Part shown: positions 47,866 through 50,160 of the stretch, piece by piece | Layout: every line of letters starts with the position of its first letter | Position numbering within the stretch: the first letter of the stretch is position 1 | NCBI RefSeq assembly: GCF_900177375.1 | Contig: NZ_FWZU01000001.1 | Location: 372,001 to 436,000 of the forward strand | Direction: 5' to 3' | Length of the DNA stretch: 64,000 nucleotides | Origin: Desulfovibrio gilichinskyi | GTDB taxonomy: Bacteria; Desulfobacterota; Desulfovibrionia; Desulfovibrionales; Desulfovibrionaceae | Position numbers and translations under genes: made by a program | The notes under the pieces: generated by a model | Seen by the model: the letters and a program-made list of their open reading frames with translations, nothing else | Databases searched by the model: none | What the model was told of the DNA's origin: nothing

Positions 47866-48093
47866 CTATTGAGTGATTCTATCAGCTTTCTTTGACACTT
47901 TATTTATCGGCTGGTTTAAATCTGTTAAGTTGACCCTGTTATAGAATAAGTCTTCAGGGGTTGCCTTTGCAAAGAGTTCTTTTAGAAGAACATTAAAGAA
48001 TAAGCTTTTGCTGACATCCAGTTTTGCACATGCTGTTTCTACTTTTTCTATGATATCCGGATGTAAGTAAACTTCTGAAAGTGTTTTGTGCAT
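47866..48093 (-). CDS. Small ribbon-helix-helix-like protein, unknown function
   Basis: This 75-residue protein begins MHKTLSEVYLHPDIIEKVETACAKLDVSKSLFFNVLLKELF. The short strand followed by two helices resembles a ribbon-helix-helix DNA-binding fold, but no specific family is recognised. The ATG at 48093 follows AGGAG at ideal spacing; the frame stays open to 48216 but that part is not needed. It is a single-gene unit with its own terminator, and its upstream region is shared with the sigma-54 promoter firing the other way. A regulatory role is possible, not shown. Confidence 0.6.
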   Translation of the reverse strand: MHKTLSEVYLHPDIIEKVETACAKLDVSKSLFFNVLLKELFAKATPEDLFYNRVNLTDLNQPINKVSKKADRITQ

Positions 48094-48274
48094 TTTGCTC
48101 CTAATCAGTTTTGATTTGTTTAAATTTTTTATGATACTGAATAACTGTTCAACTACGCAAATATTCCATATGGCTTTTATATAGTCCTTATATGGAAAAA
48201 ATCTAGTAGATATCACGATCTTAACTCATATGTTGCATAGTTGAAGCTTATATTTGAAAGAAGGTTGAACGCTT

Positions 48275-48337
48275 GTGCAGCTTTGGATGAAATCTTTTGC
48301 ACAAAAGTGCAATTATTGTGTGCAAAAAATGTGCACA
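48275..48337 (+). promoter_or_regulatory. Candidate enhancer-binding-protein sites upstream of the sigma-54 promoter
   Basis: GTGCA occurs at 48275, 48307, 48320 and 48331. The dyad TTGCAC-AAAA-GTGCAA spans 48297-48312, and a second GTGCAC palindrome is at 48331-48336. These lie about 75 to 135 bases before the expected start site, the usual range for activators of sigma-54 polymerase. Confidence 0.5.
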
Positions 48338-48382
48338 TAAAACTGCATTTATGTAATATACTTAATTTAAAGGATAATTTTT

Positions 48383-48399
48383 TTGGCACGCTTGATGCT
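48383..48399 (+). promoter_or_regulatory. Sigma-54 (RpoN) promoter
   Basis: TTGGCACGCTTGATGCT matches the consensus TTGGCACG-N4-TTGCW except one base of the -12 box. The GG and GC dinucleotides are exactly 10 bases apart. The expected start site is near 48410. No plus-strand gene follows before 50322. Confidence 0.8.
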
Positions 48400-48409
48400 A
48401 TATGCTTAG

Positions 48410-48556
48410 TAACCTGAGTGAGACAAACTTCACCCCCCAAGTTGGTTGTCTAAAGCTCAGTTAAACATACAGTCTTCATTCCTTATCATCACTCCTTAAG
48501 CACGTAAGGTCGGGACCCCTCCATCCCGGCCTTTCGTGCGTTTAGAGCTTTTTACA
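48410..48556 (+). ncRNA. Candidate sigma-54-dependent small RNA
   Basis: The segment after the sigma-54 promoter has no credible open frame. It starts with a layered hairpin: CTGAG/CTCAG (48414-48418, 48456-48460), AGACAA/TTGTCT (48421-48426, 48446-48451) and ACTT/AAGT (48427-48430, 48439-48442). The hairpin presents an exposed loop CACCCCCC. A single-stranded, pyrimidine-rich stretch follows, then a two-part GC-rich stem (48500-48539) and a T-rich end. The C-rich loop could pair with G-rich ribosome sites of mRNAs. Function and targets are unknown; the call rests on promoter, fold and terminator together. Confidence 0.6.
48500..48556 (+). terminator. Terminator of the candidate small RNA
   Basis: Stem GCACG/CGTGC (48500-48504, 48535-48539) stacked on an 8-bp inner stem around CGGGA/TCCCG (48508-48515, 48524-48531), then GTTT and a later CTTTTT. 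The opposite strand has no T-run after the stem, so it serves the plus strand. Confidence 0.7.
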
Positions 48557-48594: not shown

Positions 48595-49494
48595 TTATTT
48601 CCTGCCTGTCTGCTGAATGATATTCCCGCCGACTATGAAAAGAAGCCCTATTAAAGTGGATGGCAAAATTTCTTCCCCTAAAATAAAGTGAATAAGTACG
48701 AGAGACAGGAACGGTGAAAGGAATATCAGATTACTGATTCTGGCTGTTTTTTCGGTGAGCTTTAGAGCTTTAAGCCATAGCGCAAAAGTAATTCCCATTT
48801 CAAAGAGCCCTACATAAGCAGCCGAAAGTACGGCAGGCAGTTCAATAGGCGGCGGGCCGGTAAAAATAAGCATTGCAATCGTGACTAGAGGTAATCCCAG
48901 ACAGAAGTGTAGGAAAAGCTCAATTAATGGGTCACTTTTACTTTTGGTATTGTAAATCCAGTATAAGGCCCAAAGTACGGTGCTGAGGAGAGCAAGAAAT
49001 ACCCCGAATCCGTTGCTGAACTGGATATTTAACAGATTCCCATGTGTGGATATCACTACTACGCCGAGATAGCTTGTGAATATGGCTGCAAGTTCGCGCG
49101 TGCTTAGTTTTTGTCCTAATAATGGGATAGAAAGTAGCGACAGAGTTATCGCCCATGTGTAGTTGAGCGGTTGCGCCTCTTGCGCAGGCAGCAGGGAGTA
49201 AGCTTTGAAGAGTACTATATAGTATAGAAAAGGATTTAATATTCCGGGCAGGGCACATTTGAGTATGTTTGATATACTCATTTGTGCAATCTGCCCGATT
49301 TTTTTTTGAACAATAAGAATAATCAGCAGGGTCAATGTAGAAAAGGCCACTGCATAAAAAAGCAGTTGCAGCGGTTCCATATATGAAAGTGCAATTTTAA
49401 AAGCAGAAGCAACCGTAGACCAGATCAGTACTGCGGCCAGTCCGTACAGATATGCCTTTTTCTGATCTTTTGTTTCCATGATCTGCCAGTTCAC
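48595..49494 (-). CDS. DMT/EamA-family transporter
   Basis: This 299-residue inner-membrane protein has ten hydrophobic helices formed by two EamA repeats. The first has AVLIWSTVASAFKIAL and PLNYTWAITLSLLSIPLLGQKLS; the second has GVFLALLSTVLWALYWIYNTKSK and NLIFLSPFLSLVLIHFILGEEILPSTLIGLLFIVGGNIIQ. Family members export or import amino acids and other metabolites; the substrate is unknown. The start is uncertain between GTG at 49494 and ATG at 49479. It follows the LOG-family gene after 9 bases and may share its transcript. Confidence 0.88.
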   Translation of the reverse strand: MNWQIMETKDQKKAYLYGLAAVLIWSTVASAFKIALSYMEPLQLLFYAVAFSTLTLLIILIVQKKIGQIAQMSISNILKCALPGILNPFLYYIVLFKAYSLLPAQEAQPLNYTWAITLSLLSIPLLGQKLSTRELAAIFTSYLGVVVISTHGNLLNIQFSNGFGVFLALLSTVLWALYWIYNTKSKSDPLIELFLHFCLGLPLVTIAMLIFTGPPPIELPAVLSAAYVGLFEMGITFALWLKALKLTEKTARISNLIFLSPFLSLVLIHFILGEEILPSTLIGLLFIVGGNIIQQTGRK

Positions 49495-49503
49495 TGCGGC
49501 TTG

Positions 49504-50160
49504 CTAAATTATTACATGCTTCTTGATATGTGCAACAGCTTCTTCCGGTGAATCTGTCACCATGAAAAGATCAAGGTTTTCTTCACTGCAGAAGCCGTCA
49601 GCAACTAAACTTGTTTTGAACCAGTCTATAAGTCCGCCCCAGAATTTAGTACCCATAAGGATGATCGGGAAAGGTTTAATCCTTTTTGTCTGAATAAGGA
49701 CCAGAGCTTCACTTAATTCATCAAGTGTTCCGTAACCGCCAGGCATGGCAATGTAGGCTAAGGCATATTTTACAAACATTAATTTACGGATAAAAAAGTA
49801 ATTATAGTCACTTTTTAACGACAGGTAAGGGTTTGACTTCTGTTCAAAAGGAAGGTGAATGTGCAGACCTATTGATTCTCCGCCAGCTTCAAAACAGCCT
49901 TTGTTTCCTGCTTCCATAAGCCCAGGACCACCGCCTGTTATGACTGAATATCCAGATTCAGCAAGGAGTTTTGCCAAGCGTTCTGTTTGCTCGTAGAGTG
50001 GTTGATCCGGTGCTACGCGCGCGGAACCGAATATTGAAACAGCCGGTCCGATGTCACTCATCGTATCGAATCCGTCGACCAGTTCAGCCATTATTTTAAA
50101 AAGTCTCCAAGACTCCTGCATGGAGAGATCGTCGATAACATATTGTCTTGATTTATGCAT
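49504..50160 (-). CDS. LOG-family protein (TIGR00730-type nucleotide phosphoribohydrolase)
   Basis: This is a 218-residue Rossmann-fold enzyme. The diagnostic motifs are VITGGGPGLMEAGNKGCFEAGG and MPGGYGTLDELSEALVLIQ (PGGxGTxxE). Members cleave nucleoside 5'-monophosphates (cytokinin-type or AMP) to base and ribose phosphate. An N-terminal extension of about 40 residues is common in the bacterial group. GAGGT precedes the ATG. It is divergent from the beta-CASP gene. Confidence 0.9.
   Translation of the reverse strand: MHKSRQYVIDDLSMQESWRLFKIMAELVDGFDTMSDIGPAVSIFGSARVAPDQPLYEQTERLAKLLAESGYSVITGGGPGLMEAGNKGCFEAGGESIGLHIHLPFEQKSNPYLSLKSDYNYFFIRKLMFVKYALAYIAMPGGYGTLDELSEALVLIQTKRIKPFPIILMGTKFWGGLIDWFKTSLVADGFCSEENLDLFMVTDSPEEAVAHIKKHVII

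Follow-up and report, generated by a model that had tools for sequence, protein, structure and literature searches.

Positions 48410-48556 of the DNA analyzed here hold what is, on comparative sequence evidence, a small RNA gene conserved throughout the genus. The predicted RNA is very probably sigma-54-dependent, and the binding sites that it has in common with a zraP-like operon indicate that it is probably part of a ZraSR-like regulon. We propose that this RNA probably turns other genes down under cell-surface stress, most likely as an antisense RNA that lowers translation. Positions refer to the window, which is the whole stretch of 64 kb (372001-436000 on contig C1 of the 3.96 Mb source genome, designated G000), unless a locus (L) or genome (G) label is given. 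The features of the region are as follows.

47866-48093, minus strand: divergently oriented gene for a small protein (75 residues here), present beside the RNA in all 17 genus loci
48274-48337, plus strand: upstream activating sequences, with TGTGCA at 48274, 48319 and 48330 and, on the reverse strand, at 48298 and 48332
48297-48312, plus strand: 16-base dyad TTGCACAAAAGTGCAA, of the form TTGCAC-N4-GTGCAA
48384-48399, plus strand: sigma-54 promoter (-24/-12) TGGCACGCTTGATGCT, with GG-N10-GC spacing
48410-48556, plus strand: predicted small RNA, with both ends predicted from conservation and fold
48414-48460, plus strand: 5' hairpin with loop CACCCCCC at 48431-48438 (from fold and compensatory changes)
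48466-48499, plus strand: nearly invariant single strand, the presumed pairing region, with its seed at 48482-48497 (from alignment and accessibility)
48500-48539, plus strand: 3' hairpin, the presumed terminator, with an invariant CCTCC in its loop at 48518-48522
48549-48553, plus strand: T-run 3' of the hairpin, the presumed transcript end (from sequence)
48595-49494 and 49504-50160, minus strand: genes downstream of the RNA
50322, plus strand: start of the next plus-strand gene

The initial annotation of this region described a near-consensus sigma-54 promoter with exact GG-N10-GC spacing, a set of upstream GTGCA elements that includes a 16-base dyad, and a distance of 1.9 kb to the next plus-strand gene with only opposing genes between, and the features listed above bear out this description. 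Specifically, the promoter is the sole exact match to TGGCAC-N6-TGCW in the window, where 0.18 matches are expected. The hexamer TGTGCA occurs 29 times on both strands of the window (30 expected), and five of these copies are clustered in the single 64-base stretch from 48274 to 48337. A scan for sigma-70 promoters returns one weak match, which lies inside the RNA, and shuffled sequences give more.

In all 17 genomes of the genus, the promoter, the GTGCA sites and the protein-free folded segment occur together as a single unit, and it is mainly this conservation that places the whole unit beyond chance. Upstream of the RNA segment, each of the 17 loci carries a match to TGGCAC[AG]N5TGCT, such that the -24/-12 promoter and its GG-N10-GC spacing are always kept together with the RNA, and each has 4 to 8 copies of TGTGCA or TGCACA no more than 140 nt from the promoter. 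A blastn search of 148 genomes finds the segment in all 16 other members of the genus (E 1.2e-7 or better). The best blastn match elsewhere (E 0.002) covers the promoter only, and no homologue of the RNA is found outside the genus. Similarly, with a covariance model every one of the 17 genus genomes yields a full-length copy (E 1.2e-22 or better), and under stricter filters its best match outside the genus (E 6.5e-4) is not credible. Rfam yields no match in the window at the gathering score and holds no family for this RNA; at E values up to 10 there are six weak hits, and Qrr is not among them.

The transcript had been proposed to fold at once into a layered hairpin with a particular loop sequence, and this is upheld by a fold energy of -43.1 kcal/mol, compared with a mean of -26.7 for 200 shuffled sequences (z -4.9), none of which folds equally well, and by the presence of CACCCCCC in the first loop. 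Three blocks recur among the relatives: a 5' hairpin with a C-rich loop, a single strand, and a 3' hairpin with a CCTCC loop. The first of these loops reads CACCCCCC in the source genome and mostly UCCCCU in the ten sequences of clade B. The intervening strand is nearly free of G (2 in 35 nt) and is among the most conserved parts of the alignment. Averaged unpaired probabilities range from 0.85 to 1.0 in CCTCC, and within the strand they are 0.50 to 0.97 at the middle and 0.16 to 0.99 at the end.

Compensatory base changes, the absence of which in relatives was to count against the RNA, are present in both hairpins. In the clade-B alignment, 9 of 31 pairs have changed on both sides, compared with 3.6 in shuffled alignments, and none of 500 shuffles reaches this number. 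When all 17 sequences are aligned, 36 cells carry changes on both sides (12.6 in shuffles; 0 of 500 as high). The count of such pairs is 7, however, which 28 of 500 shuffles also reach, and in neither alignment do further pair types rise above the shuffles. The 11 stem pairs of the 3' hairpin are paired in 100% of cells across the 17 sequences, and four of them have changed on both sides. Sliding the partner strands as a control lowers pairing from 90-98% to 29-59%, where the higher values are flattered by structures that were derived from the same sequences. Nor is a conserved reading frame, whose presence had been set as a second possible refutation, found across the RNA sequences of the genus. 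Together with the conservation and covariation, this lends support to the central claim of the initial annotation, that of a structured, protein-free small RNA driven by sigma-54.

The proposed two-part terminator fares less uniformly. The hairpin stands, and in several relatives a T-run can be seen by eye directly 3' of its stem. In the source genome the T-run begins about 9 nt past the stem, which is a less canonical arrangement, and a terminator consensus scan, whose loop limit is 8 nt, makes no plus-strand call in the source genome or in the two relatives scanned (L009 and L013).

The sites upstream of the promoter point to a likely activator. Within the genus, 16 of the 17 genomes contain the exact dyad TTGCAC-N4-GTGCAA, at 19 sites in all, and the same pattern read backward occurs at none. 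By coordinates, 15 of these sites are at the RNA promoter and the other four (in G002, G003, G011 and G016) are at a locus for a zraP-like protein, a histidine kinase and an NtrC-type regulator, where the match to the kinase lies 2 to 6 kb away. G013 is without any exact dyad, and G002 is without one at the small RNA promoter. In G002 the dyad lies upstream of a sigma-54 promoter that is followed by a zraP-like gene, a DUF4405-like gene, a histidine kinase gene and the gene for an NtrC-type response regulator. In G003, G011 and G016 it precedes an FtrD-like gene and an FtsX-type permease gene in a zra-like neighborhood, with domains run for G003. Because the dyads are confined to the RNA or the zra-like locus, the activator is likely to be a ZraSR-like system for envelope or metal stress. 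The suggestion to search for GTGCA sites at other sigma-54 promoters has thus answered the question of the activator in outline, as the sites are common to the RNA and this operon.

The zra-like operon of the source genome lies on a different contig (G000:C2) and encodes Metal_resist and DUF4405 proteins, a histidine kinase, and a response regulator with Sigma54_activat and Fis-type helix-turn-helix domains, and half-sites are present at its sigma-54 promoter. In the eight genus genomes examined, zraP-like promoters carry sites of the TGTGCA/TTGCAC type at about -65 to -105 of the sigma-54 element, and such sites are also present at zraP-like promoters of other genera (G018, G034 and G096). 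On the contig of the RNA, no strong sigma-54 regulator gene is closer than about 190 kb, so it is only the shared sites that tie the RNA to its proposed activator. The proteins are named "like" because all three score under the NCBIfam equivalog cut-offs for Zra proteins (398.5 bits versus 760 for ZraR, 236.7 versus 479 for ZraS, and 39.2 versus 200 for ZraP). All 17 genus genomes, and 95 of the 148 genomes overall, contain a match to the sensor part of the kinase, and thus the stress system is far more widespread than the RNA. In Desulfovibrio alaskensis, zraP is reported to drop sharply under copper (PMC8836040), and the signal therefore need not be copper.

From these features we infer that the RNA is transcribed, that this regulator is its activator, what kind of signal is sensed, and that the RNA acts by pairing with particular targets. 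In the scheme that we regard as likely, a ZraSR-like two-component system would sense envelope or metal stress, and its NtrC-type regulator would bind the TGTGCA/TTGCAC sites and drive sigma-54 RNA polymerase at 48384-48399. The regulator would at the same time switch on the zraP-like operon to which its own gene belongs, at another place in the genome. The product would be a small RNA of about 140 nt, acting in trans and independently of Hfq, whose nearly G-free strand (about 34 nt) and two C-rich loops would pair with ribosome-binding sites and start codons, such that translation of the target mRNAs is lowered. The best present lead for such a target is fdhA, which encodes a selenoprotein formate dehydrogenase. 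A search for Hfq (PF17209) finds it in none of six genomes searched, whereas 5 of 14 controls are positive.

On visual inspection, the RNA has four stretches with complementarity to ribosome-binding sites, and the pairing of C-rich loops with such sites is what we infer from this complementarity. When the 16-mer seed is searched with at most two mismatches in 8 of the 17 genomes, 44 matches are obtained, 7 of which are the RNA itself, and the backward control gives 9. The start of fdhA, which reads AAGGAGCGATGATGAG or TAGGAGCGATGATGAG, is matched by the seed in six of these eight genomes, and in G000, G005, G009 and G013 it is the only non-self match with no more than one mismatch. Both by duplex energy and by z-score, it ranks second among 434 start regions, which represent about one-eighth of the source genome and into which the fdhA stretch was put on purpose. 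In the 16 of 17 genomes where an fdhA orthologue is found, its start pairs better than 300 shuffled regions do (z -1.9 to -5.0). Against this stands the fact that common descent alone keeps the fdhA start conserved. In the same sample of 434 regions, a reversed-strand control reaches -25.7 kcal/mol, beyond the -25.0 kcal/mol of fdhA, and thus energy alone is not significant. Extrapolated genome-wide, about eight other genes should pair as well as fdhA, and the case for this target is suggestive only.

Several other candidate targets were rejected. The start of rpoD contains a match to the 16-mer in seven of eight genomes (the gene was read in five, and the G000 copy is a sigma-70 factor by Pfam), yet it stands no higher than rank 15 of 434. 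By duplex energy, the neighboring genes rank 343 (EamA), 243 (LOG-like) and 336 (small divergent gene), and zraP ranks 171, among the same 434 regions. A role as a CsrA sponge was also discarded, as in the two sequences checked GGA does not occur outside the terminator stem.

If the activator were another of the roughly 26 sigma-54 regulators of this organism, for example a LuxO-like protein with a similar TGCA dyad, then the same small RNA would be made, and the zra-like operon would be co-regulated or its sites coincidental. We judge this unlikely, even though the genome offers 26 strong Sigma54_activat matches, plus four weak ones, from which to choose. The zra-like regulator, whose best NCBIfam models are, in order, AtoC, NtrC and ZraR, also scores 387.7 bits with the LuxO model, close to its ZraR value, and the LuxO site TTGCAWWWTGCAA (PMC10162802) resembles the dyad. 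The position of every exact genus dyad at either the RNA or the zra-like locus argues against such an activator, and the sites at zraP-like promoters in other genera fit autoregulation by the operon's own regulator. Slightly less probable still is an RNA that binds a protein rather than mRNAs, possibly the adjoining small protein whose conserved gene is divergent from the RNA in all 17 loci. A protein site would equally need a long invariant single strand. Nevertheless, the complementarity of strand and loops to ribosome-binding sites favors mRNA partners, CsrA-type GGA motifs are restricted to the terminator stem as noted above, Hfq was not found in the six genomes, and the best PDB profile match of the small protein is to the DNA-binding protein CopG, at a non-significant E of 0.5.

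The remaining two explanations concern the nature of the segment itself. That the element is cis-acting or structural, serving as a terminator or 3' end for the opposing gene with no independent RNA, is very improbable, although the 3' hairpin does lie immediately past the end of the EamA reading frame (stop codon at 48595), and the scans of L009 and L013 both call a terminator-like site at the hairpin on the minus strand, with none on the plus strand. The sigma-54 promoter and its sites are nonetheless kept in 17 of 17 loci, five of which have no EamA homologue within about 1.5 kb, and the strand between the hairpins is among the best-conserved parts. Least probable of all, to the point of being nearly negligible, is a small protein gene inside the segment. 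Nine of ten clade-B sequences have a co-located frame that starts with UUG, AUG or GUG and encodes LFPC or similar (7 to 45 residues), but its length and end vary, a motif resembling a ribosome-binding site precedes it in only two of the nine, and the other clade lacks it entirely.

Outside the genus, 14 of 131 genomes contain the dyad, at 17 sites in all, compared with five control sites, which implies that part of the 17 are due to chance. When one locus per genome was examined, 6 of the 14 had a fitting sigma-54 promoter and the other eight were unconvincing. Three of these dyads precede zraP-like genes, of which two (L124 and L130) match Metal_resist and one (L131) matches nothing and was named by eye. 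The others with a promoter precede a protein-free segment (L135), a short frame (L136) and an HlyD-type adaptor gene (L125). In G018, G060 and G096, the dyad is less than 2 kb from a kinase match.

The protein-free segment (L135 1500-1800) is in G068, a member of another genus, where the dyad and sigma-54 promoter are followed by a 5' hairpin, the strand ACTCCCTCC and a strong hairpin. A genome of that same genus, G028 (L205), contains a match of 96% identity that begins at about the predicted start, and its upstream region, which does not align with that of G068, yet holds a sigma-54 promoter and TGTGCA sites. The covariance model of the present RNA family does not detect the G068/G028 segment, which we regard as a candidate counterpart of the RNA, either diverged or convergent. 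Two of the other loci carry features of separate interest. At L136 1213-1413 (minus strand, G020), the dyad and sigma-54 promoter precede a 67-residue frame that has a hydrophobic start and no Pfam match. At L125 2032-3015 (plus strand, G120), the dyad and a sigma-54-like promoter lie upstream of the HlyD-type adaptor, which is a possible regulon member.

The statement in the initial annotation that no RNA of this kind has been described was too strong. The sigma-54 regulome of D. vulgaris Hildenborough lists 36 regulons and four non-coding RNAs under such control (PMC4641369), and thus the kind of RNA is already known from a related bacterium. One lies upstream of DVU3282 under the response regulator DVU1419, which is classed under envelope stress, and others are under DVU0653 and DVU2359 (PMC4641369); Dv_sRNA2, under DVU0679, was seen in tiling data (PMC3333781). 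By description, these resemble the present RNA as non-coding RNAs driven by an NtrC-type regulator and sigma-54. In these accounts, the RNAs under DVU0653 and DVU0679 adjoin their own regulator genes, which the present RNA does not. In the open-licence papers searched, neither the present RNA nor its tie to a zraP-like operon was found.

Other known systems share some of these features. The Vibrio Qrr RNAs, controlled by LuxO and sigma-54, likewise combine a response-regulator enhancer-binding protein, sigma-54 and a TGCA dyad (the LuxO upstream activating sequence given above; PMC10162802). The present RNA differs from them in having no Rfam match, a different dyad spacing, no Hfq found, and a zraP-like partner operon. 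Like it, Qrr RNAs take a multi-hairpin form. The E. coli ZraPSR system has in common with the present one a zraP-like protein, a histidine kinase, an NtrC-type response regulator and a sigma-54 promoter, which here carries the sites also found at the RNA, whereas the proteins here fall below the equivalog cut-offs and a DUF4405 gene is part of the operon. We know of no small RNA in the E. coli ZraPSR regulon. Enterobacterial CpxQ, MicA and RybB are also repressor RNAs made under an envelope-stress regulator, and the Cpx one is produced together with a periplasmic chaperone. Set side by side from description, they resemble the RNA proposed here in this respect and differ in that they are Hfq-dependent and under sigma-E or Cpx rather than sigma-54.

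To our knowledge, antisense regulation in sulfate reducers where Hfq is not found has been little explored. The present RNA would give the Zra-type envelope stress system a post-transcriptional arm. Its activator, signal and targets can each be tested directly, since a likely activator has been named, the binding site is nearly private, and the structure, the short presumed pairing strand and the small neighbor protein are all conserved. More speculatively, and we hold this to be rather doubtful, the RNA could be the founding member of an Hfq-independent family of envelope-stress RNAs in Desulfovibrionaceae that is made beside a periplasmic chaperone. Such an RNA would carry several elements that block ribosome-binding sites and would shut down translation of exported metalloenzymes, first among them the selenoprotein formate dehydrogenase, thereby linking periplasmic stress and energy metabolism. 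The divergent neighbor gene would encode a small protein that is dedicated to it and previously unclassified, and the G068/G028 segment would be a diverged or convergent counterpart.

This small protein has 72-75 residues across the loci, and its gene occupies the corresponding place in L003-L018. Between its start and the sigma-54 promoter there are 273-313 nt, and in G005 the frame is interrupted by a stop after 18 codons. Sixteen sequences share 25 invariant columns, the longest block of which is KA-x-PEDLFYNRV. There is no NCBIfam match, the Pfam and PHROGs hits are below cut-off or non-significant, as is the PDB profile match to the repressor CopG, and no copy is found in viral contigs. 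A single-sequence structure model (pLDDT 74.8) has no Foldseek match below E 3. Perhaps the N-terminal half resembles a ribbon-helix-helix domain, and the protein may regulate the RNA, share its regulation, or simply lie next to it.

On the other side of the RNA, an EamA homologue is present in 12 of the 17 loci, and none is found within about 1.5 kb in L004, L009, L013, L015 and L018. A comparison of related loci anchored on the LOG-like neighbor added little. In G003, genes for an FtrD-like protein, a MacB/FtsX permease and an ABC ATPase (L087 8056-10323) adjoin zraP-like genes, downstream of the dyad and a promoter-like site, TTGCAC-N5-TTGCAT, and FtrD-like starts resembling that of G003 are seen in G008, G011 and G016. 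In the other clade, a gene for a solute-binding protein (SBP_bac_11, by eye of the molybdate/tungstate type) lies beyond the small divergent gene at L010 2511-3092 (plus strand), and by eye the same is true of L013, L015 and L017.
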